Below are positions 10,896 through 43,766 of a stretch of DNA of 45,775 nucleotides, piece after piece; within the stretch, counting starts at the first letter, position 1, and the number at the start of each line of letters is the position of its first letter. The DNA is taken from contig JAAETT010000102.1 in assembly GCA_024228115.1 (NCBI GenBank), positions 1 to 45,775 on the forward strand. Direction: 5' to 3'. The notes beneath the pieces are model-generated. The model did not search any database and was not told the origin of the DNA. It saw nothing but the letters and a program-made list of their open reading frames with translations. Source of the stretch: a bacterium (GTDB taxonomy: Bacteria; Myxococcota_A; UBA9160; UBA6930). Made by a program: the position numbers and the translations under genes.

Positions 10896-11222
10896 TCATT
10901 CCCGTGTATCGTCGTCGTCGGCCGATTCGTCCAGCGGCGCTGAAGAGGCGTCGACCATCTCCTTCAGCTCCTTGCCCACCTTGAAGAAGGGCGTCCGCTT
11001 GGCGGGAATATGGACTTCCTCGCCCGTCTTCGGATTGCGACCCTCGCGAGCCTCCCGGACTTTCACCTGGAAGCTCCCGAAGCCACGGATCTCGATCCGA
11101 TGCCCGTGCTTCAACGCTTCCGTCATCGAATCGAAGATCGTATTGACGACGATCTCCGTGTCCTTCTTCGAGATATGCGGCGTGAGCTCTGCCACTTTCT
11201 CGATGAGTCCGCTCTTGGTCAT
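10896..11222 (-). CDS. ihfB: Integration host factor beta-like / HU-family DNA-binding protein
   Basis: A 108-residue HU/IHF-fold protein that bends DNA. The N-terminal helices (MTKSGLIEKVAELTPHISKK) are followed by the RGFGSFQVKVREAREGRNP beta-arm and the PKTGEEV...PAKRTPFFKVGKELK core. It is about 14 residues longer than E. coli IHF-beta because of an acidic tail (LDESADDDDTRE). Position directly after rpsA identifies it as the IHF-beta (HimD) orthologue rather than HU. The ATG at 11222 has GGAGA seven bases upstream. A strong hairpin separates it from rpsA. The partner IHF-alpha is not in the window; IHF commonly assists sigma54 promoters such as the one proposed near 36.55 kb. Confidence 0.88.
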   Translation of the reverse strand: MTKSGLIEKVAELTPHISKKDTEIVVNTIFDSMTEALKHGHRIEIRGFGSFQVKVREAREGRNPKTGEEVHIPAKRTPFFKVGKELKEMVDASSAPLDESADDDDTRE

Positions 11223-35403: not shown

Positions 35404-36123
35404 ATGCTCAGGAAACTCTGGAAGAACATCCGTCTGATTCTCGGCCGCTACTTCGTGGCCGGCGTGGTCGCTTTTGCTCCGATCGGCGTCACGATCTGGG
35501 CGATCGCCTGGATCGTTCGACGCCTCGACAACCTGCTCCTCCCGAGCGTGCTGCGCTGGATCTTCCCCGGCGCCCAGGAGCCGCCGAGCGTGCCGCTCCT
35601 CGGCGCCGTATTCACGCTGCTGGTGATCCTGTTGTTCGGTGTGATCGCCCGCCATCTCTTTGGCTGGGAGCTGGTGCGCCTCTGGGAGCGGTTGCTCTCT
35701 CGCGTGCCCGTTGCCCGCAACATCTATTCCGCGGTCAAACAGCTCTTCGAGGCCATCTTCAGGAGCAGCGATGCGGCCGCGAGCTTCAACCGCGTTGCCA
35801 TCATCGAGTACCCGCGCGAGGGGCTGTTTGCGCTCGCCTTCGTCACCGGGCCGGTCCGCGGCCTGGACGTCTCGGGGCTGCCCCCGAACATGGTGAATGT
35901 CTTCGTCCCGACCACGCCGAACCCAACCTCCGGCTTCTACCTCCTCGTGCCGGAGACCGGCCTGATCCCGGTGGACCTCTCCGTCGAACAAGCCTTCAAG
36001 CTGGTGATGTCGGCAGGTCTCGTCAGCCCCGATCATCAAGCGGGGGAGGCGGTTCCGGGCAGCGCGGCGGTGGCACCCGGCGAACTCGCTCCGCCGTTGC
36101 CCTCGCCGGGCGAAGCTTCCTAG
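35404..36123 (+). CDS. DUF502-family membrane protein
   Basis: A 239-residue inner-membrane protein of DUF502 (COG2928), function unknown. The first helix is in YFVAGVVAFAPIGVTIWAIAW and the second in LLGAVFTLLVILLFGVIARH. The family core follows: WERLLSRVPVARNIYSAVKQL and VAIIEYPREGLFALAFVTG, then NVFVPTTPNPTSGFYLLVP. The C-terminal 40 residues are Pro/Ala/Gly-rich and probably disordered. Its stop TAG shares CTAG with the stop of the convergent small gene. Confidence 0.88.
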   Translation: MLRKLWKNIRLILGRYFVAGVVAFAPIGVTIWAIAWIVRRLDNLLLPSVLRWIFPGAQEPPSVPLLGAVFTLLVILLFGVIARHLFGWELVRLWERLLSRVPVARNIYSAVKQLFEAIFRSSDAAASFNRVAIIEYPREGLFALAFVTGPVRGLDVSGLPPNMVNVFVPTTPNPTSGFYLLVPETGLIPVDLSVEQAFKLVMSAGLVSPDHQAGEAVPGSAAVAPGELAPPLPSPGEAS

Positions 36124-36416
36124 CTTTCGCTCTCGCCGGGCCCGCCGTCTCCGCGCCGCTCCTGGAGCCAGGCCCGGAGGCCGAGCCCCAGACCGGCAAC
36201 CGCCAGGATGCCCGCACCCCATTGGTTGAAGGCAAGGTGCTTGCTCAACGATGCGGCCGGGTCGAGCCGGTCCGGGTTGAAGAAGCCGTCGTAGCCAAAC
36301 CAGAGCGCGCCGGCGAGCAGCAGTACCGGTACGAAGTAGGGGCCATCCAGCGGCGTGGGTGCGTATTCGGGAGTCTTCTTCCCCTCGGGGGCCGAGGGAT
36401 CGTCTGATTCTGCCAT
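36120..36416 (-). CDS. Small two-helix membrane protein of unknown function
   Basis: A 98-residue protein with a polar N-terminus (MAESDDPSAPEGKKTPEYAP), two hydrophobic helices (YFVPVLLLAGALWFGYDGF and WGAGILAVAGLGLGLRAWL) and a charged tail. I do not recognise the family. ATG start, 235 nt from the divergent kinase gene, and convergent with the DUF502 gene. A signal-like GTGAGGG lies directly before the start. Confidence 0.6.
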   Translation of the reverse strand: MAESDDPSAPEGKKTPEYAPTPLDGPYFVPVLLLAGALWFGYDGFFNPDRLDPAASLSKHLAFNQWGAGILAVAGLGLGLRAWLQERRGDGGPGESES

Positions 36417-36458
36417 CCCTCACTAGTCGCGAACGCGGGACGGGGACGCAATGCCGCC

Positions 36459-36501
36459 CGGGTGCAGTACCCGAGCTGCAGTGTCGGATGTAGGCTGCAG
36501 C
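36459..36501. promoter_or_regulatory. Paired inverted repeats, probable enhancer sites for an NtrC-type activator
   Basis: Two dyads lie side by side: CGGGT-N5-ACCCG at 36459-36473 and GCTGCAG-N13-CTGCAGC at 36475-36501. They share the TGCAG element (36463, 36477, 36496). They sit about 55-95 bp upstream of the sigma54 promoter at 36554, the usual distance for activator binding. The fused regulator encoded downstream has a Fis-type DNA-binding helix and is the obvious candidate ligand; that link is inference. Confidence 0.5.
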
Positions 36502-36553
36502 AGGTTCTCGGGCCGAGCCGCGTAACCCGTTGGAATTCCTGGAGTTGGAGTTT

Positions 36554-36571
36554 CGGCACGACCCTTGCTCT
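36554..36571 (+). promoter_or_regulatory. Sigma54 (-24/-12) promoter of the kinase-PspA operon
   Basis: The sequence CGGCACGACCCTTGCTCT matches the consensus TGGCACG-N4-TTGC with one mismatch (first base). The invariant GG (36555-36556) and GC (36567-36568) are 10 nt apart as required. Transcription would start near 36580, about 70 nt before the first kinase ATG. The operon itself encodes a sigma54 activator, which supports the call. I saw no sigma70 promoter of comparable quality in this gap. Confidence 0.65.
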
Positions 36572-36651
36572 CTCGATCAGGCATGATTCCCGAGCGGCCT
36601 CGAGCCGCCATCGAAACGGTTCCCGGCAAACCCGCCCTGAGAGGCCCATGC

Positions 36652-37815
36652 ATGTCCCGACGGCGCGACGAACCCCGAACGGCTCACTCCCGTAGAAGCA
36701 CCGAACGGCGCCGAAGGCGTCGGGAGGAACGGTTGCAGGCGCAGCGCAGCGGGCATCACGATTGGGAGGCTTGGCCCGGTGATTCGGACGCGTTCGGCGG
36801 AAACCTGCCGACGACGTCGGAGCCTGGATCCTCCACGGACGATCCCCGCGAGCGGGCCTACCGCGAAGCGCGCAAGGCGGCGAACCGGCGCATCGGTTTC
36901 ATGTCCCACCTGATTCCCTATCTGGTGGTGAACGCCTTCCTGCTGTTGGTCGCCGGACCCCGAGCGGCTTTCTGGACCGCCATGCCCTGGGGCGTCGGCC
37001 TGGCCCTGCACTACTTCTTCGCCATCGTCGCACCGGATCTGCGCCAGCGTTGGGTCGACCAGGAGGTCGAGCAGCGAGTCGGCGTTGGTGTCTCCCGGGA
37101 ACGCGCCAACCTCGAAGGCGCCCACTCGAAGCAGGTCGAGGAACTCTCGGCCTCGATCGCCCACGAGATCCGCAATCCGATCACGGCCGCCAAGAGCCTC
37201 GTTCAGCAGATGGGCGAGGATCCCAGAGCGAACGACAACGTCGAGTACGCCAACGTGGCCCTCGAAGAACTCGAGCGGGTGGAGCGCAGCATCTCCCATC
37301 TCCTGCGCTACGCGCGAGACGAAGACGTGGTGCTGCGCGAGGTCTCCATTGCCGAAGTCATCGATTCGGCCCTCGAAACCTTCCGCGATCGACTGCAGAC
37401 CGTCGGCATCACCGTCGAGTTGGACGTTCACAACGCCGGCCCCATGCGAGGGGATTCGGAGAAGCTGCGCCGGGTGATCATCAACCTGGTCGGCAACTCC
37501 CTCGACGCCTTTTCCGACGGCCACACCGAGCATCCGATCCTCGTGGTCCAGGCCGGCGAAAACCTGGCCGGCACCGAGATCTGGCTTCGGGTGAAAGACA
37601 ACGGTCCGGGCATGGAACCCGAGCGGCTGACGCGGATCTTCAGCCCCTTCTACACATCGAAGGAGAGCGGTACCGGGCTGGGCCTGGCGATCTCGAAGAA
37701 GGTCGTCGATGCCCACGGCGGTTCGATCGAGGCCCACTCCGATCCGGGCAACGGCACGGAGTTCGTCCTCACCTTTCCCAAGGAGATCCGCGAACAACCC
37801 GAGAGTGCTTCGTGA
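36652..37815 (+). CDS. 2TM-domain sensor histidine kinase (first of tandem pair)
   Basis: A 387-residue kinase. A very basic N-terminus (residues 1-35, Arg-rich) precedes a 2TM domain (two helices about 84-102 and 108-127, with the RQRWVDQEVEQRV exit segment). A HisKA helix follows with the phospho-acceptor H171 in SIAHEIRNPITAAKSL. The ATPase domain has the N box (RRVIINLVGNSLDAF), G1 (VKDNGPGM), F box (FSPFYTSKESG) and G2 (TGLGLAISKK). There is no periplasmic sensor, so it probably senses the membrane itself or a partner. The start ATG 36652 was chosen over an upstream ATG because GAGAGG precedes it. The next gene overlaps its stop. Confidence 0.88.
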   Translation: MSRRRDEPRTAHSRRSTERRRRRREERLQAQRSGHHDWEAWPGDSDAFGGNLPTTSEPGSSTDDPRERAYREARKAANRRIGFMSHLIPYLVVNAFLLLVAGPRAAFWTAMPWGVGLALHYFFAIVAPDLRQRWVDQEVEQRVGVGVSRERANLEGAHSKQVEELSASIAHEIRNPITAAKSLVQQMGEDPRANDNVEYANVALEELERVERSISHLLRYARDEDVVLREVSIAEVIDSALETFRDRLQTVGITVELDVHNAGPMRGDSEKLRRVIINLVGNSLDAFSDGHTEHPILVVQAGENLAGTEIWLRVKDNGPGMEPERLTRIFSPFYTSKESGTGLGLAISKKVVDAHGGSIEAHSDPGNGTEFVLTFPKEIREQPESAS

Positions 37816-40283
37816 GCCGCCGGGGTCACCGGAACTGTGGCGCGGGGACGAGGCAATCGGCCCGGCGTCGGAAGCGCCGCGACGGGTCCGAGCACGCCCG
37901 CGACGCTGCGTCGCGAAGCGAGGGTGACGGGAGAGAGGATCGGTTGGCCGCAGCTCGGAAGCGTGCCCGGGCGAAGGCGAAGCTCGTCAAGGATCTGATC
38001 GGCCTGCTCCTCGTAACCACCCTCGTCGGCATCTTTGCCGGCCGCGCCGCCTTCTGGGTGATCACGATCGGCGCGTTCGTGATCGTGGGTGATTTCGTGA
38101 AGAAGGTCCTCGAACCGCAACTGCGGGAGCGTTGGATCGAGCGTGAGGTGCAGCGGGAACTGGATCACGAGGTCGCCGCCCACCGGCACCAGACCCTGGG
38201 CCAGCAATCCCGGCACATCGAGCACCTGGCGGCGGGCGTGGCCCATGAGATCCGCAACCCGATCACGGCCGCCAAGAGCCTCGTCCAGCAGATGGGCGAA
38301 GACCCGCGCGCCGAAGACAACGTAGGGTACGCCCACGTCGCGCTGGAGGAACTCGAGCGGGTAGAGAAGAGCATCTCGCACCTGCTGCGATTCGCCCGCG
38401 AAGAGGGATTCCAGGGCCAGCCGCTCGCGCTGGCGGATGTGGTTCGCTCGGCGCTCGCCACGTTCCGCGAGCGCATCGATCAGACCGGCGTGCTCGTACA
38501 ACTCCAACTCGAAGACGAAGCAACGATCTACGGGGATCCCGAGAAGCTGCGCCGGGTCGTGATCAACCTGATTGCGAACGCCCTCGACGCGATGAGTGAA
38601 GCAGAACGCCATCCGGTTCTCAGCATCGAGACCGGTCAGAACCTCGCTTGCGACGAAGCCTGGCTGCGCGTGCGCGATCACGGCCCGGGCATCGAGCCTT
38701 CGGAACGAGAGGGCATCTGGAATCCGTTCGTCTCGTCCAAGGAGAGCGGAACCGGCCTCGGTCTCGCACTCACCAAGAAGATCATCGAAGCCCACGGCGG
38801 CCAGATCGAGTTGGAAAACCCCTCGACCGGCGGCGCCGCCTTCCTCGTCAGCCTGCCCACACGACACCCCGGAGCAAGCATGACTGGTCCCAGAATCCTC
38901 ATCGTCGAAGACGAGCGTGCCATCCGCCTGGCCTTGTCGGGCCTGCTGAAGCGCGAGGGCTTCACGAGCGAACAAGCCGGGGACGGTCGGGCCGCCATCG
39001 CGATGCTGGAAGCGGAATCCTTCGATTTCGTGCTCACGGATCTTGCCCTGGGCGAAGGGCCGAGTGGAATGGACGTCCTGCGCGCCACCAAGGCGAACCA
39101 GCCGGAAACGCCCGTGGTGATGATCACTGCCCACGGCAATGAAAAAGTGGCGGTCGAAGCCATGAAGGCTGGCGCCGACGACTATGTCCCCAAGCCCTTC
39201 GACAACGACGAGATCCGCCTCGTGGTGCGTCGCTGCCTGGAGCGCACGCAGCTCGCGCGAGAGAACCGGCTGCTGCGCGCCCGCGTCGAAAAAGACTACG
39301 GGATGGGCAACTTGATCGGCTCCGGTGCAACCATGCGCCAGGTCTTCGAAACGATCCAGAAGGTTGCCGAGACCGATCTCACCGTGTTGATCCGCGGCGA
39401 GAGCGGTACGGGCAAAGAACTCGTCGCCCAGGCGCTTCACGAAAAGAGCGCACGGAAGGGGCGACCCTTCGTGGCCGTGAACTGCGCTGCGATCAGCCGC
39501 GAGCTGGTCGAAAGCGAACTCTTCGGCCACGAGAAAGGCGCTTTCACGGGCGCCGACGCGCGTAGGGTCGGTCGTTTTGAGGCGGCCGACGGCGGCACGA
39601 TCTTCCTTGACGAGATCGGCGACATGGCGCCAGAGACCCAGGCGAAGGTACTGCGTGTCTTGCAGGAGCGTTCGTTCGAACGTGTCGGCGGCGCCCAACC
39701 GATCGCTGTCGATGTGCGCGTCGTCGCAGCCACCCACCGCGATCTGGAAAAGGATGTCGCGGACGACCGCTTCCGGGAGGATCTCTACTACCGGTTGAAG
39801 GTCGTCGAGCTCCCCCTTCCCCCGCTTCGCGAACGACGGGAAGATCTCCCGGCCCTGGCCGAACGCTTCCTCGGGCAACTTGCAGAACGTCTGGGACGTC
39901 CTGCCAAGCCACTCGCTGAGGAGGCCCTCGCCGCTCTCGCCCGCCACGCGTGGCCCGGTAATGTTCGCGAACTCCGCAATGTGATCGAGCAAGCCGCGGT
40001 CCTCGCTCCCGGCGAGCGGATCGAGCCCGGAGACCTGAACCTCGCTACGGGCGCGAGCCGGCGCAGCGCGGAAGAGCTCGTGCCCCAGGGCGACCTCCCC
40101 TTCTCCGACGCGAAGAAGGCATCCGTCGAGCGCTTCGAGCGCAGCTACCTGCTAGGCGCCCTGCGACAAAACCAAGGCAACATTTCTCGCACCGCCGAAG
40201 CCATCGGGATGGTGCGCCAGAGCTTGCAGCAGAAGATCCGCGACCTCGACCTCCGGGACGAAGATTGGAACGCGGACGAATGA
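37812..40283 (+). CDS. Fused 2TM histidine kinase and NtrC-type sigma54 activator
   Basis: One uninterrupted 823-codon frame. Residues 1-60 are basic; a 2TM domain lies at about 62-100; HisKA has H145 in VAHEIRNPITAAKSL; the HATPase has NLIANALDA, VRDHGPGIEP and GTGLGLALTKK. With no stop it continues at M357 into a receiver domain (D367, phospho-acceptor D410 in VLTDLALGEG, K461). An AAA+ sigma54-interaction domain follows (Walker A GESGTGKE at about 529; GAFTGA at 576-581; Walker B TIFLDEIGD), and then a Fis-type helix-turn-helix (ISRTAEAIGMVRQSLQQKI). The GTG start overlaps the first kinase's stop. An internal GGAG-N5-ATG at 38880 could also give the regulator alone. Confidence 0.85.
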   Translation: MSRRGHRNCGAGTRQSARRRKRRDGSEHARDAASRSEGDGREDRLAAARKRARAKAKLVKDLIGLLLVTTLVGIFAGRAAFWVITIGAFVIVGDFVKKVLEPQLRERWIEREVQRELDHEVAAHRHQTLGQQSRHIEHLAAGVAHEIRNPITAAKSLVQQMGEDPRAEDNVGYAHVALEELERVEKSISHLLRFAREEGFQGQPLALADVVRSALATFRERIDQTGVLVQLQLEDEATIYGDPEKLRRVVINLIANALDAMSEAERHPVLSIETGQNLACDEAWLRVRDHGPGIEPSEREGIWNPFVSSKESGTGLGLALTKKIIEAHGGQIELENPSTGGAAFLVSLPTRHPGASMTGPRILIVEDERAIRLALSGLLKREGFTSEQAGDGRAAIAMLEAESFDFVLTDLALGEGPSGMDVLRATKANQPETPVVMITAHGNEKVAVEAMKAGADDYVPKPFDNDEIRLVVRRCLERTQLARENRLLRARVEKDYGMGNLIGSGATMRQVFETIQKVAETDLTVLIRGESGTGKELVAQALHEKSARKGRPFVAVNCAAISRELVESELFGHEKGAFTGADARRVGRFEAADGGTIFLDEIGDMAPETQAKVLRVLQERSFERVGGAQPIAVDVRVVAATHRDLEKDVADDRFREDLYYRLKVVELPLPPLRERREDLPALAERFLGQLAERLGRPAKPLAEEALAALARHAWPGNVRELRNVIEQAAVLAPGERIEPGDLNLATGASRRSAEELVPQGDLPFSDAKKASVERFERSYLLGALRQNQGNISRTAEAIGMVRQSLQQKIRDLDLRDEDWNADE
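38871..38882 (+). promoter_or_regulatory. Internal ribosome binding site and ATG at the kinase/regulator junction
   Basis: GGAG (38871-38874) is followed after 5 nt by ATG (38880-38882), in frame with both halves. The ATG begins MTGPRILIVEDE, exactly where a free NtrC-type response regulator would start. It suggests that the two parts were separate genes before the kinase stop codon was lost, and that a free regulator may still be made. Confidence 0.5.
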
Positions 40284-40344
40284 AGACCCGGACAGGACCC
40301 GCTTCCAGACCCATGAGCCGCGCCCAGGCCCAGAAGGACACAAC

Positions 40345-41091
40345 ATGACACAACGACCCGGTTTCTTTGCACGATTGTTTGGTTTCATCTCCGGAATCGC
40401 CACCCATTGGATTCGCGGCCGAGAGGAGCAAAACCCCCAGGCGGTCTTCGAGAACGCCATCTCGGAGCGCGTGGGCCAATACCGCGAGCTCAAGGAAGCG
40501 GTGGCTGGCATCCTCTACATGCGCAACAAGCTGGAGGGCGATCTCGCGGATCGCCGCGGCGAACTCGCGCGCACCCTCGAAGACATTCGACGATCCGTCC
40601 AACGCGGTGACGATGATGTCGCTCTCACGTTGATCGCCCACAAGCAGGCCTTGATCGAAGACATCGAGCGGGCCGAGACCGAGTTCGAGACCCTCAAGAC
40701 CGAGGCCGAGGAAGCCAAGACCAATCTGGTGCGCTTCCGTGAGGAGATCCGGGCCCTCGAACGCGAGAAGGGCCGTATCGTCGTCACCCTCGCCAATGCC
40801 AAAGCCCGGCGGCGGATCCACGAGGCGATCGACGGCCTCTCGGTCGACGCCGACATGCGAGCCCTCGAGAGCGTGCGTTCGCACGTTGCCCGGCTCTCCA
40901 CGGAAGGTGAGCTCGACCGGGAACTCGGCGCGGATGACGATCTGCAAGGCCGGCTGAAGAGCATCCGACGGGAAGCGACCCACGAAGCGGCGCGTCAGGA
41001 ACTCGAGCAGTTCAAGCGCCAGATGAGCTCCGCCGCCCTGCCCGCCCGCTCGGCCCGCAAGGCTCCGCCGGTGCCCGTGGTCTCGCGATGA
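40345..41091 (+). CDS. pspA: PspA/IM30-family membrane-stress protein
   Basis: A 248-residue, almost wholly helical coiled-coil protein of the phage-shock PspA/IM30 (ESCRT-III-like) family. It binds stressed inner membrane and limits proton leakage. An amphipathic N-terminal helix (FFARLFGFISGIATHWI) is followed by NPQAVFENAISERVGQYRELKEAVAGI, the family opening, and long heptad helices to about residue 215. The tail is Ala/Pro/Arg-rich. AAGGA precedes the ATG. It follows the fused kinase/activator by 61 nt without an obvious promoter, so it is most likely co-transcribed from the sigma54 promoter at 36554. Homologue identity is fair rather than strong. Confidence 0.78.
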   Translation: MTQRPGFFARLFGFISGIATHWIRGREEQNPQAVFENAISERVGQYRELKEAVAGILYMRNKLEGDLADRRGELARTLEDIRRSVQRGDDDVALTLIAHKQALIEDIERAETEFETLKTEAEEAKTNLVRFREEIRALEREKGRIVVTLANAKARRRIHEAIDGLSVDADMRALESVRSHVARLSTEGELDRELGADDDLQGRLKSIRREATHEAARQELEQFKRQMSSAALPARSARKAPPVPVVSR

Positions 41092-41531
41092 ACGCGGGCG
41101 TCCGGAATGACAGCTGGCTCATGGAAGAGGAGCCGGAATTCACCCGCATCGTTCAACGGGTGGAGGGCCAGGCGCGAGCCGAAGAGCGAGTTCGGCTCCT
41201 GGCCCTCTCCTACCTCGTCCTGCACGGGCTCGGCGCGGCCGCGGCGGCGCTCGTGTTCGTGGCGCTGGCCGGCACCGGCCTGATCAGCGGCGACCCGACC
41301 GCGACCTGGGTGCTCGGTGGAATTGGCGCAGCCGTCGCCACCGTGGTCGGGGCACTGGCAATCCCCGGCCTCGCGACCGGCGTCGGATTGTTGTTGCACC
41401 GCCCCTGGGCGCGAACCTCGGCGATCGTCGTCGGCGCACTCTCCCTTCTGTGGGTACCCCTCGGCACCCTCGTCGGCGTGCTGACCCTCTACGTATTGCT
41501 GCAGGACGACGTGCGGGAACTCTTCTCCTAG
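41088..41531 (+). CDS. Four-helix membrane protein coupled to pspA
   Basis: A 147-residue protein with a cytoplasmic N-terminus (about 40 residues, EFTRIVQRVEGQARAEERV) and four hydrophobic helices (about 41-63, 71-100, 103-117 and 121-140). It ends VLTLYVLLQDDVRELF. I do not recognise a named family; the last helix pair resembles small uncharacterised membrane proteins with a WVPLGTLVGVLTLYVL ending. The ATG overlaps the pspA stop (ATGA), so it is translationally coupled and a likely PspA membrane partner, filling the place of PspB/PspC. That role is inferred from position only. Confidence 0.65.
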   Translation: MNAGVRNDSWLMEEEPEFTRIVQRVEGQARAEERVRLLALSYLVLHGLGAAAAALVFVALAGTGLISGDPTATWVLGGIGAAVATVVGALAIPGLATGVGLLLHRPWARTSAIVVGALSLLWVPLGTLVGVLTLYVLLQDDVRELFS

Positions 41532-41580
41532 CAAACCGGAGCCAGCGAAGGGAAGTCTCCTTCTCCGCTAGGCTCCCGCC

Positions 41581-42369
41581 ATGACAGAACCCGTTCTCCT
41601 CGTCGAAAAAAAAGACGGTCTCGCGACCGTCACGCTGAACCGGCCGGCCGCGCGCAACGCGCTCTCCGGTGCGCTGCGCCGCGCCATCGCGGCGACCTTC
41701 ACCGCGCTGCCCGAGGATCCCGAGGTCGGTGCAATCGTCCTCACCGGAGCCGGGACGGCGTTCTCGGCCGGCATCGATTTGAAGGAACTCGGGGGCCAGG
41801 GGCCCGAGGACGGTGGTGCGGGCGAGCTTCCGCTCGTCGAGGACGCAATCCGTGCGATCGAGGCCTGCCCGCTTCCGATCGTCGGTGCCATCAATGGATT
41901 TGCCATCACCGGCGGATTCGAGCTGGCGTTGGCCTGCGACGTACTGATCGGTTGCCCGGAGACCCGCTTCGCCGATACCCACGCCCGAGTCGGGATTCTT
42001 CCAGGCTGGGGACTCTCCCAGAAGCTCCCGCGCCTGATCGGGATCAACCGGGCCAAGCTCGTTTCGCTTACGGGGAACTTCGTCGATGCGGAGACCGCGG
42101 AGCGCTGGGGTCTACTTGCCCAGGTCGTCGCAGGTGCCGACGAGCTTCTGCCAACCTGTCAGGCAATCGCCCACGACATGCTCTCGTGTGTGCCCGATGC
42201 GATGCGGGGCTACAAGAAAATGATCGACGAGGGCTTCGGCATGAATTACGCGGAAAGCCGCGAGTACGAAAGACGCGAGTCGTTCGAACACGTCAAGAAC
42301 GTCACGGCAGATGATGTGGCAGCGCGACGCACCGGAATCCAGGAACGCGGGCGCGGGCAGAGCCGCTGA
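41581..42369 (+). CDS. Enoyl-CoA hydratase/isomerase family protein
   Basis: A 262-residue crotonase-fold protein. The oxyanion-hole pieces are AGTAFSAGIDLKELGG and INGFAITGGFELALACDV. The first catalytic Glu of crotonase is kept (E114), while the second, in the segment FADTHARVGILPGWG, is replaced by His (H134). This may mean isomerase, hydrolase or another crotonase activity instead of plain hydration. The C-terminus (YERRESFEHVKNVTADDVAARRTGIQERGR) is typical of the family. A TAGGCT box lies 6 nt before the ATG, so the message may be nearly leaderless. Confidence 0.85.
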   Translation: MTEPVLLVEKKDGLATVTLNRPAARNALSGALRRAIAATFTALPEDPEVGAIVLTGAGTAFSAGIDLKELGGQGPEDGGAGELPLVEDAIRAIEACPLPIVGAINGFAITGGFELALACDVLIGCPETRFADTHARVGILPGWGLSQKLPRLIGINRAKLVSLTGNFVDAETAERWGLLAQVVAGADELLPTCQAIAHDMLSCVPDAMRGYKKMIDEGFGMNYAESREYERRESFEHVKNVTADDVAARRTGIQERGRGQSR

Positions 42370-42371
42370 CC

Positions 42372-42394
42372 GGTCACGGCCAGAGCCCGTGACC
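42372..42394. terminator. Stem-loop between convergent genes
   Basis: GGTCACGG (42372-42379) and CCGTGACC (42387-42394) form a perfect 8-bp stem with a 7-nt loop in the 35-nt gap between the crotonase-family gene and the FHA gene, which converge here. It could act on both strands. There is no U-run on either side. Confidence 0.4.
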
Positions 42395-42404
42395 TCCGGC
42401 GGTC

Positions 42405-43766
42405 TCAGGAACGCTTCAACTTCACCCGGACGGTGAGCTCCGCGCTCTCCTCCGTATTCTCGAGTTCCTGGAGGGCCCGACGCAACGGCTCGGGAAGGCC
42501 TTCTGAAGCCAATTCCAGCTGGAGGACCAACGGCGCAGTAGCGGACTTCTCGAAGCTGACAGGCGCCAACTCGAGCTCTTTCTCGTCCAGATCCTGCTCG
42601 GCCGTCTCGATTCCGTCCTCTTCCGTAGACGAGAACGCCGTCTCGATCTGGTTCTGTCCGGCGGCCGATTCGAGAGGTTCGACTTCGGAGTTCTCGATCC
42701 CGTCGAGGACGATCGGCGGCTGCGCCTGAACGGTCATGCTGAGGGGATCCGTGTGCTCGACTTCCGGTTCCAGAACGTCCGCACCCATCTGGAGCTCGCT
42801 TCCGATCGGCTCGGACTCGAGCACGAACGTCAGCTCGAAGGTCTCGATCTGCACGATGTCGCCAACGCTCAGGATTCGCTGGTGGACGCGCTCGCCGTTC
42901 ACCATCACACCATTGATGGAATCCAGGTCGCGGACCTCGTAGATCTCGTCATTGCGAACGAAGAGCGCGTGGCGGCGGGAGACCTCCCGCGCCCCCAGGA
43001 AGATCTCGCATTCGGCTCCGCGCCCTGCACACAACTCGTCCTCGTCCCAGGCCAGGACCCGATCGAGTTGTCCGGAACGCTGCACGATCAGTCCCGGGAA
43101 ACTACCCGCGGGCTCCGCCTCGTCCCCGGCCGTTTCCTGGAGCTCGGTTTCAGGCTCGAACTCGATTTCGGGCTCGGACTCGATCTGGGGCTCGAACTCG
43201 GGCTCGCCGGAATCCAGAATCCCATCGGGTTCTCCGAGTCCGTCTTCGCCCAGGCCGACACCCCATAGCTCGCCGTCTTCCAGAGGCACCTCCGCCTCCG
43301 CCAGATCCTCGTCACCGATCGAAAACGGGTCCACGTCGGGCGTCTCGTGGCTACCTTCCCATGCGCCAACCGGCGCGAGCGCAGTCGAGGCTTCCACGGC
43401 CGTCGACGAAGGGGTGCCCGACTCCAAGGACTGCAAGGCCGGCTCCGCGCTCAATGGCGCTTCGACGCTGGGGGGACCCACACGCATCGTGTGCCGCCCG
43501 ATCCGAAGCTCGTCCGTGGATCCGATCTCGACACGCCCCTCGATTCGTTGGCCGCCTAGCCAGATCCCATTCTGGCTGCCCAGATCTTCGACGTAGATCT
43601 GCTCGCCTACCCGTTCGAGCAGCGCGTGGGTTCGGCTGGCCGCACGATCCCTCACCACGACGTCATTTTCCTCCAGCCGACCCACCTGAAGGCGATCCGA
43701 GCTGAACGGAATCTCGGCGAGCGGCTCGCCATCAATGGAAACATGGACATGCAGGATCGTGCTCAT
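42405..43766 (-). CDS. Double-FHA-domain protein
   Basis: A 453-residue cytoplasmic protein with two phosphothreonine-binding FHA domains. The first is at the N-terminus (about 1-95: DRLQVGRLEENDVVVRDRA, SRTHALLE, DLGSQNGIWLGG). The second is in the centre (about 240-330: DELCAGRGAECEIFLG, SRRHALFVRN, DLDSINGVMVNG). A Glu/Pro-rich acidic spacer joins them. The C-terminal 120 residues are also acidic and end in a conserved-looking segment (LELASEGLPEPLRRALQEL). The start is ATG 43766. No Ser/Thr kinase gene is nearby, so its partner is unknown. Confidence 0.8.
   Translation of the reverse strand: MSTILHVHVSIDGEPLAEIPFSSDRLQVGRLEENDVVVRDRAASRTHALLERVGEQIYVEDLGSQNGIWLGGQRIEGRVEIGSTDELRIGRHTMRVGPPSVEAPLSAEPALQSLESGTPSSTAVEASTALAPVGAWEGSHETPDVDPFSIGDEDLAEAEVPLEDGELWGVGLGEDGLGEPDGILDSGEPEFEPQIESEPEIEFEPETELQETAGDEAEPAGSFPGLIVQRSGQLDRVLAWDEDELCAGRGAECEIFLGAREVSRRHALFVRNDEIYEVRDLDSINGVMVNGERVHQRILSVGDIVQIETFELTFVLESEPIGSELQMGADVLEPEVEHTDPLSMTVQAQPPIVLDGIENSEVEPLESAAGQNQIETAFSSTEEDGIETAEQDLDEKELELAPVSFEKSATAPLVLQLELASEGLPEPLRRALQELENTEESAELTVRVKLKRS

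Follow-up and report, generated by a model that had tools for sequence, protein, structure and literature searches.

The window, which is the whole 45,775-nucleotide stretch of DNA analysed here, contains an operon for two membrane kinases, an NtrC-type response regulator, a PspA/IM30-family protein and a small hydrophobic membrane protein. The first kinase gene, HK1, is preceded by a -24/-12 sequence of the sigma54 type, an IHF-like word and two candidate activator dyads. The coordinates of these features are given in Table 1.

Table 1. Genes and predicted regulatory features of the operon, in order of position
Feature	Position	Strand	Details
Activator dyad 1 (candidate)	36463-36480	.	TGCAG-N8-CTGCA, 10/10 match
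Activator dyad 2 (candidate)	36482-36499	.	TGTCG-N8-CTGCA, 8/10 match, degenerate
IHF-like site	36523-36535	-	TAACCCGTTGGAA, complement of WATCAANNNNTTR; 7/9 in the window, up to 9/9 in relatives
sigma54 -24/-12 promoter	36554-36569	+	CGGCACG-ACCC-TTGCT; GG 36555-36556, GC 36567-36568
Predicted transcription start	36580	+	12 nt past the C of the -12 GC; inferred from sigma54 geometry
Near-leaderless AUG	36583-36585	+	At predicted +4, in frame with HK1
HK1, 2TM-HisKA-HATPase kinase	36652-37815	+	PF13239, PF00512, PF02518
HK2, second membrane kinase (HisKA, HATPase)	37812-38879	+	Start overlaps HK1 stop
NtrC-type response regulator	38880-40283	+	PF00072, PF00158, PF02954
PspA/IM30-family protein	40345-41091	+	PF04012, 59.7 bits against a cut-off of 33.9
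Small hydrophobic membrane protein	41088-41531	+	No Pfam match; conserved in several relatives (tblastn)

Products of the operon

The regulator had been read from the sequence as a complete NtrC-type activator, and Pfam finds all three parts of one: receiver, AAA+ domain and helix-turn-helix (HTH). The receiver carries Asp54, the AAA+ domain is of the sigma54-activator type with a GAFTGA motif, and the HTH is of the Fis type. Both D54 and the GAFTGA region are conserved. The closest NCBIfam matches of the protein are NtrC, AtoC and NtrX, all of them below cut-off. Of the 60 nearest relatives searched, 34 have an orthologue with 69-94% identity. The gene order kinase(s)-regulator is preserved in relatives, and PspA comes next in nearly all of them, the exceptions including contig ends and one locus (L053).

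In the window, HK2 and the regulator form one open frame from 37812 to 40283, with no stop between them. In four genomes of the same genus, HK2 stops at or before the start of the regulator. The open frame may be either a true fusion confined to this lineage or an assembly error of a single base.

The PspA of the operon scores far below the cut-off of TIGR02977, the curated model of the E. coli type. Neither PspB nor PspC was found among the operon proteins scanned. The operon also departs from the classical PspF-psp arrangement in that its regulator has a receiver domain and its genes include kinases.

Promoter, upstream dyads and the start of HK1

The letters of 36554-36569, CGGCACGACCCTTGCT, differ from TGGCACG-N4-TTGC at one base and keep the spacing GG-N10-GC, just as the sequence-only reading had described them. 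A word of this kind is not rare. A scan of the window for the sigma54 consensus with at most one mismatch returns one match where chance would give 0.27, a result equalled by 24 of 100 shuffled sequences. Taken singly and within the window only, the promoter word is compatible with chance and is not decisive. The case for a real promoter is made instead by its conservation among orthologous loci.

A sigma54 site lies 5' of the first kinase gene in 28/28 orthologous loci with intact upstream DNA. Alignment of related upstream regions had been proposed as a check, and GG and GC prove invariant across these loci. The whole of GGCA and TGC, together with adjacent columns, is invariant or nearly so, and most flanking columns of the 28 upstream regions are at background. 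Scoring with a sigma54 weight matrix, another of the checks proposed, also favours the site: 5 of 840 shuffles of the same upstream regions reach the score of the locus itself, a score that is approximate, as is the matrix, which follows the published consensus. Promoter and dyads are the same in the isolate UBA9160. Absence of rpoN from the genome had been named as grounds for giving the promoter up, and RpoN is encoded (PF04552, E = 6.7e-63).

No sigma70-type promoters were found within 36000-42500. A second sigma54-like word at about 36230 (12.9 bits) falls within an opposite-strand gene of 98 aa and seems to be incidental.

Upstream of the promoter, the sequence-only reading had pointed to two inverted repeats as the likely sites of activator binding. 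Both are present in the window, CGGGT-N5-ACCCG at 36459-36473 and GCTGCAG-N13-CTGCAGC at 36475-36501, and the region was well chosen. The register was not: the conserved element is a tandem TGCAG-N8-CTGCA. Relatives do not share the first repeat, and the second, taken as one dyad, pairs half-sites that belong to two different dyads. Read in the corrected register, the dyads are kept in orthologous loci.

Dyad 1 lies 91 nt upstream of the first base of the promoter, which places it at about -117 to -100 relative to the predicted start. Dyad 2 follows 19 bp further downstream, 72 nt before that base (about -98 to -81), and most relatives likewise have two dyads, 19-20 bp apart. The spacing within the dyad is sharply defined. 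When TGCAG...CTGCA is scanned at every spacer from 0 to 19 over the 28 upstream regions, dyads matching at 9/10 or better number 48 at spacer 8, against 0 at spacer 7 and 1 at spacer 9. Spacers 13, 14 and 16 give 15, 25 and 7 dyads, which are largely half-sites of neighbouring dyads. By chance, about one 18-bp dyad with at most one mismatch is expected per window.

Between dyads and promoter, most relatives carry a YAANNNNTTGATW-type word that fits the IHF consensus, with 9/9 matches in three loci. In most of the 28 loci, the best IHF-like match falls at -29 to -32 relative to the promoter, and columns -30, -29 and -20 to -18 are conserved as A and A/T. In the window the site is weak, since 13% of shuffles reach its score. 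IHF-alpha and IHF-beta are both encoded among the genome's proteins, above the curated NCBIfam cut-offs. IHF is also used in the E. coli psp system. Action of IHF at the promoter is graded as probable and no higher because the site is absent in about a quarter of the loci. The gene for IHF-beta itself lies inside the same window, at 10953-11222 on the minus strand.

The predicted transcript would begin almost directly with a start codon. An AUG stands at predicted +3/+4 in 26/28 loci, and in all 26 of these it is in frame with the kinase and free of intervening stops. In the window, the HK1 frame reaches back to 36583, and an ATG led by a Shine-Dalgarno sequence, GAGG, follows 69 nt downstream. 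The second in-frame start lies mostly 42-108 nt further on, and has a Shine-Dalgarno-like word before it in most loci. In the Toastrack genes of the window's own genome and of genome G003, an AUG likewise stands at +4, where it opens a signal-peptide-like sequence. HK1 is thus quite likely to have a near-leaderless start plus an internal one, given the predicted transcript start.

Distribution of the pattern and of the operon's regulator

The promoter and its dyads can be searched for as a composite pattern, TGCAG-N8-CTGCA-N55..85-GGCAC-N5-TTGC, with the reversed pattern as a control. The pattern is found in 31/80 genomes of the order (control 0), in 33/91 of the class and in 35/379 of the phylum, where the reversed control gives 1 match. 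The regulator is present in 59/379 genomes of the phylum (protein search, E <= 1e-140). Pattern and regulator occur together in 32 genomes; Fisher's test gives a p of about 8e-27, a value that overstates independence, as the carrier genomes share ancestry.

Of the 288 genomes beyond the class, two carry the pattern, and these two are also the only ones there to carry the regulator (p = 2e-5, with the same caveat). In these two genomes (G281 and G324, loci L266 and L267), the promoter is followed by an extra gene, one kinase and a regulator that is 65-68% identical. No PspA was detected in the promoter-linked stretch of either. Because these two carriers hold the regulator with no PspA detected in the operon, the pattern tracks the regulator and not PspA. 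The extra first gene is sterol-desaturase-like in G281, as judged by eye, and lipoprotein-like in G324.

Mismatches between the two distributions are few on one side and more common on the other. Three genomes have the pattern with no regulator match. In G046 and G052 the contigs end within or before the regulator, and G049 appears to hold a relic, in which dyad and sigma54 site are followed directly by a C-terminal fragment of PspA (contig C62, L148). The exact pattern misses 27 of the 59 regulator-positive genomes, some of which have degenerate dyads and some of which have contig ends. Nearly every orthologue of the regulator, the two from outside the class among them, retains the HTH helix GMVRQSLQQK. 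Autoregulation is supported mainly by the co-distribution of pattern and regulator.

Two further searches gave little. Among 80 loci of other phyla, none but OFTM60 has a PspA near the NtrC relative, which is a weak test, as similarity to NtrC was the sole basis on which loci were chosen. A loose search for half-dyads in the window's own genome returned 26 matches against 16 for the reversed control, and is uninformative.

The pattern also occurs away from the operon. In the window's own genome, the sole other exact match is a promoter before two secreted Toastrack (DUF4097) genes, and Toastrack loci carrying the pattern are found in G003 and G038 as well. Proteins of the Toastrack type are established partners in Psp systems (PMC11237479). 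Both genes of the own-genome locus (L102, contig C646, promoter at 36538, minus strand) look frameshifted in the assembly; longer open frames are found in G003 (L154).

Another example is a small two-span membrane protein that has the pattern before it in six genomes of family f4. The proteins at these loci (L138, L139, L142, L144, L146 and L149) are 61-82% identical to the L144 copy, and in five of the six the next gene, identified by eye, encodes a DAHP synthase. In the same family the pattern stands once upstream of a DUF4389 membrane protein. The regulon of the regulator thus appears to include the Toastrack proteins, the small membrane protein and the DUF4389 protein, and to be mostly envelope-related.

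A P450-like gene probably belongs to it as well. In G035 the pattern precedes such a gene, which was named by eye (the fragments tested have no Pfam match). Its counterpart in the window's own genome, 59% identical, has a sigma54 site and a 9/10 dyad at -85. P450-like genes with this type of promoter occur in two families (L081, L145). Other sigma54 words in the genome stand before Amt-like transporters, a pilin and other genes, named by eye.

The proposed circuit and its relation to known systems

Judged from conservation and distribution, the locus is very probably the autoregulated, enhancer-controlled sigma54 promoter of a phage-shock-type envelope-stress system. In this model, the membrane-embedded kinases would respond to a disturbance of the membrane by phosphorylating the NtrC-type regulator, a pairing that is assumed from their shared operon. 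The regulator would then bind the tandem TGCAG-N8-CTGCA dyads, which the co-distribution supports, and IHF would probably bend the DNA between the dyads and the promoter. By the established mechanism of its family, the AAA+ domain would open sigma54-RNA polymerase at 36554-36569. A transcript from near 36580 would yield more kinase, regulator and PspA, and so close a positive feedback loop. The same regulator would also drive the distal, mostly envelope-related genes. Positive feedback had been put forward as the simplest reading of the operon, and it gains support from the way in which the presence of dyads and promoter matches that of the regulator, including in the two genomes outside the class.

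A fuller version of the model is more tentative. In it, the two kinases and the NtrC-type regulator would replace PspF, PspB and PspC and govern PspA, Toastrack and further membrane proteins, the regulon would be driven by phosphorylation and amplify itself, and HK1 would have two products, initiated at the near-leaderless AUG and at the Shine-Dalgarno-led start.

The regulator might instead control the promoter while being inhibited by PspA, which would modify the main reading by turning the circuit from a self-amplifying switch into a homeostat. The PspA of E. coli forms a complex with PspF and thereby silences its own transcription (PMC9239133), and here PspA is encoded in the same operon. 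However, the relatives outside the class keep the promoter with no PspA shown in the operon, which implies that the circuit can do without PspA. A homeostat of this kind is rather unlikely.

Another model accepts the promoter as real but assigns the dyads to some other enhancer-binding protein, PspF-like or NtrC-like, with the operon lying downstream of a cascade. The genome has 22 NtrC-like matches, each of them a conceivable binder of sites upstream of a sigma54 promoter. It is nevertheless the operon's own regulator that dyads and promoter follow, even into the two outside-class genomes whose operon shows no PspA. Since the DNA-reading helix is also nearly invariant among orthologues of this regulator, and its gene sits in the operon itself, control by another protein is very improbable. 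Finally, chance occurrence in GC-rich DNA of a sigma54-like word and unrelated palindromes would suit the window alone, given the expected numbers of promoter matches and dyads, but its probability is negligible beside 28/28 loci at constant geometry in mostly unconserved surroundings and the excess of the composite pattern over its control.

The autoregulated circuit can be compared with several known systems. In NtrBC, ZraSR and AtoSC, a kinase and an NtrC-type regulator act through dyads upstream of a -24/-12 promoter. The TGCAG-N8-CTGCA dyad and the targets, PspA and Toastrack, are specific to the group described here.

The psp system of E. coli has a sigma54 promoter and PspF, under kinase-free control (PMC11237479, PMC9239133). 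It shares with the present operon the sigma54 promoter, an AAA+ activator with a Fis-type HTH, and PspA as a product. PspF, however, has no receiver and no kinase and is divergently encoded, whereas here the NtrC-type regulator and two kinases share the operon of PspA. The E. coli system also differs in having PspB and PspC, which were not found in this operon.

Two-component control of PspA-type genes is known from LiaRS or, in actinobacteria, MprAB, which do not involve sigma54 (PMC11237479, PMC9239133). The LiaFSR-LiaIH system of Bacillus is alike in placing a PspA-family protein under a two-component system and in including a Toastrack (DUF4097) protein (PMC11237479). LiaR, however, is a receiver-HTH regulator, with neither sigma54 nor an AAA+ activator. 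The DVU2989 regulon of Desulfovibrio vulgaris is a sigma54-dependent psp operon outside the gammaproteobacteria, as the one described here appears to be, but DVU2989 is listed as a single-component regulator and not as a two-component response regulator (PMC4641369).

The wiring had been described as new. Its two elements are not, as two-component control and sigma54 control are each known. Their combination, a sigma54-dependent response regulator that controls pspA, was not found in the open-access literature searched.

The locus therefore suggests a third Psp wiring, besides the type in which PspF is held by PspA and the LiaRS type: a sigma54 response regulator that would activate its own operon. 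This wiring appears to be conserved across the uncultured, UBA9160-type Deltaproteobacteria of one class and to extend to two genomes from a different class. Operons in which PspA is missing allow the role of the regulator to be told apart from that of PspA, and the conserved in-frame AUG at the predicted end of the transcript makes the dual starts of the sensor kinase directly testable. The anatomy of the promoter is defined well enough that regulon members may be predicted in any genome that carries the regulator.
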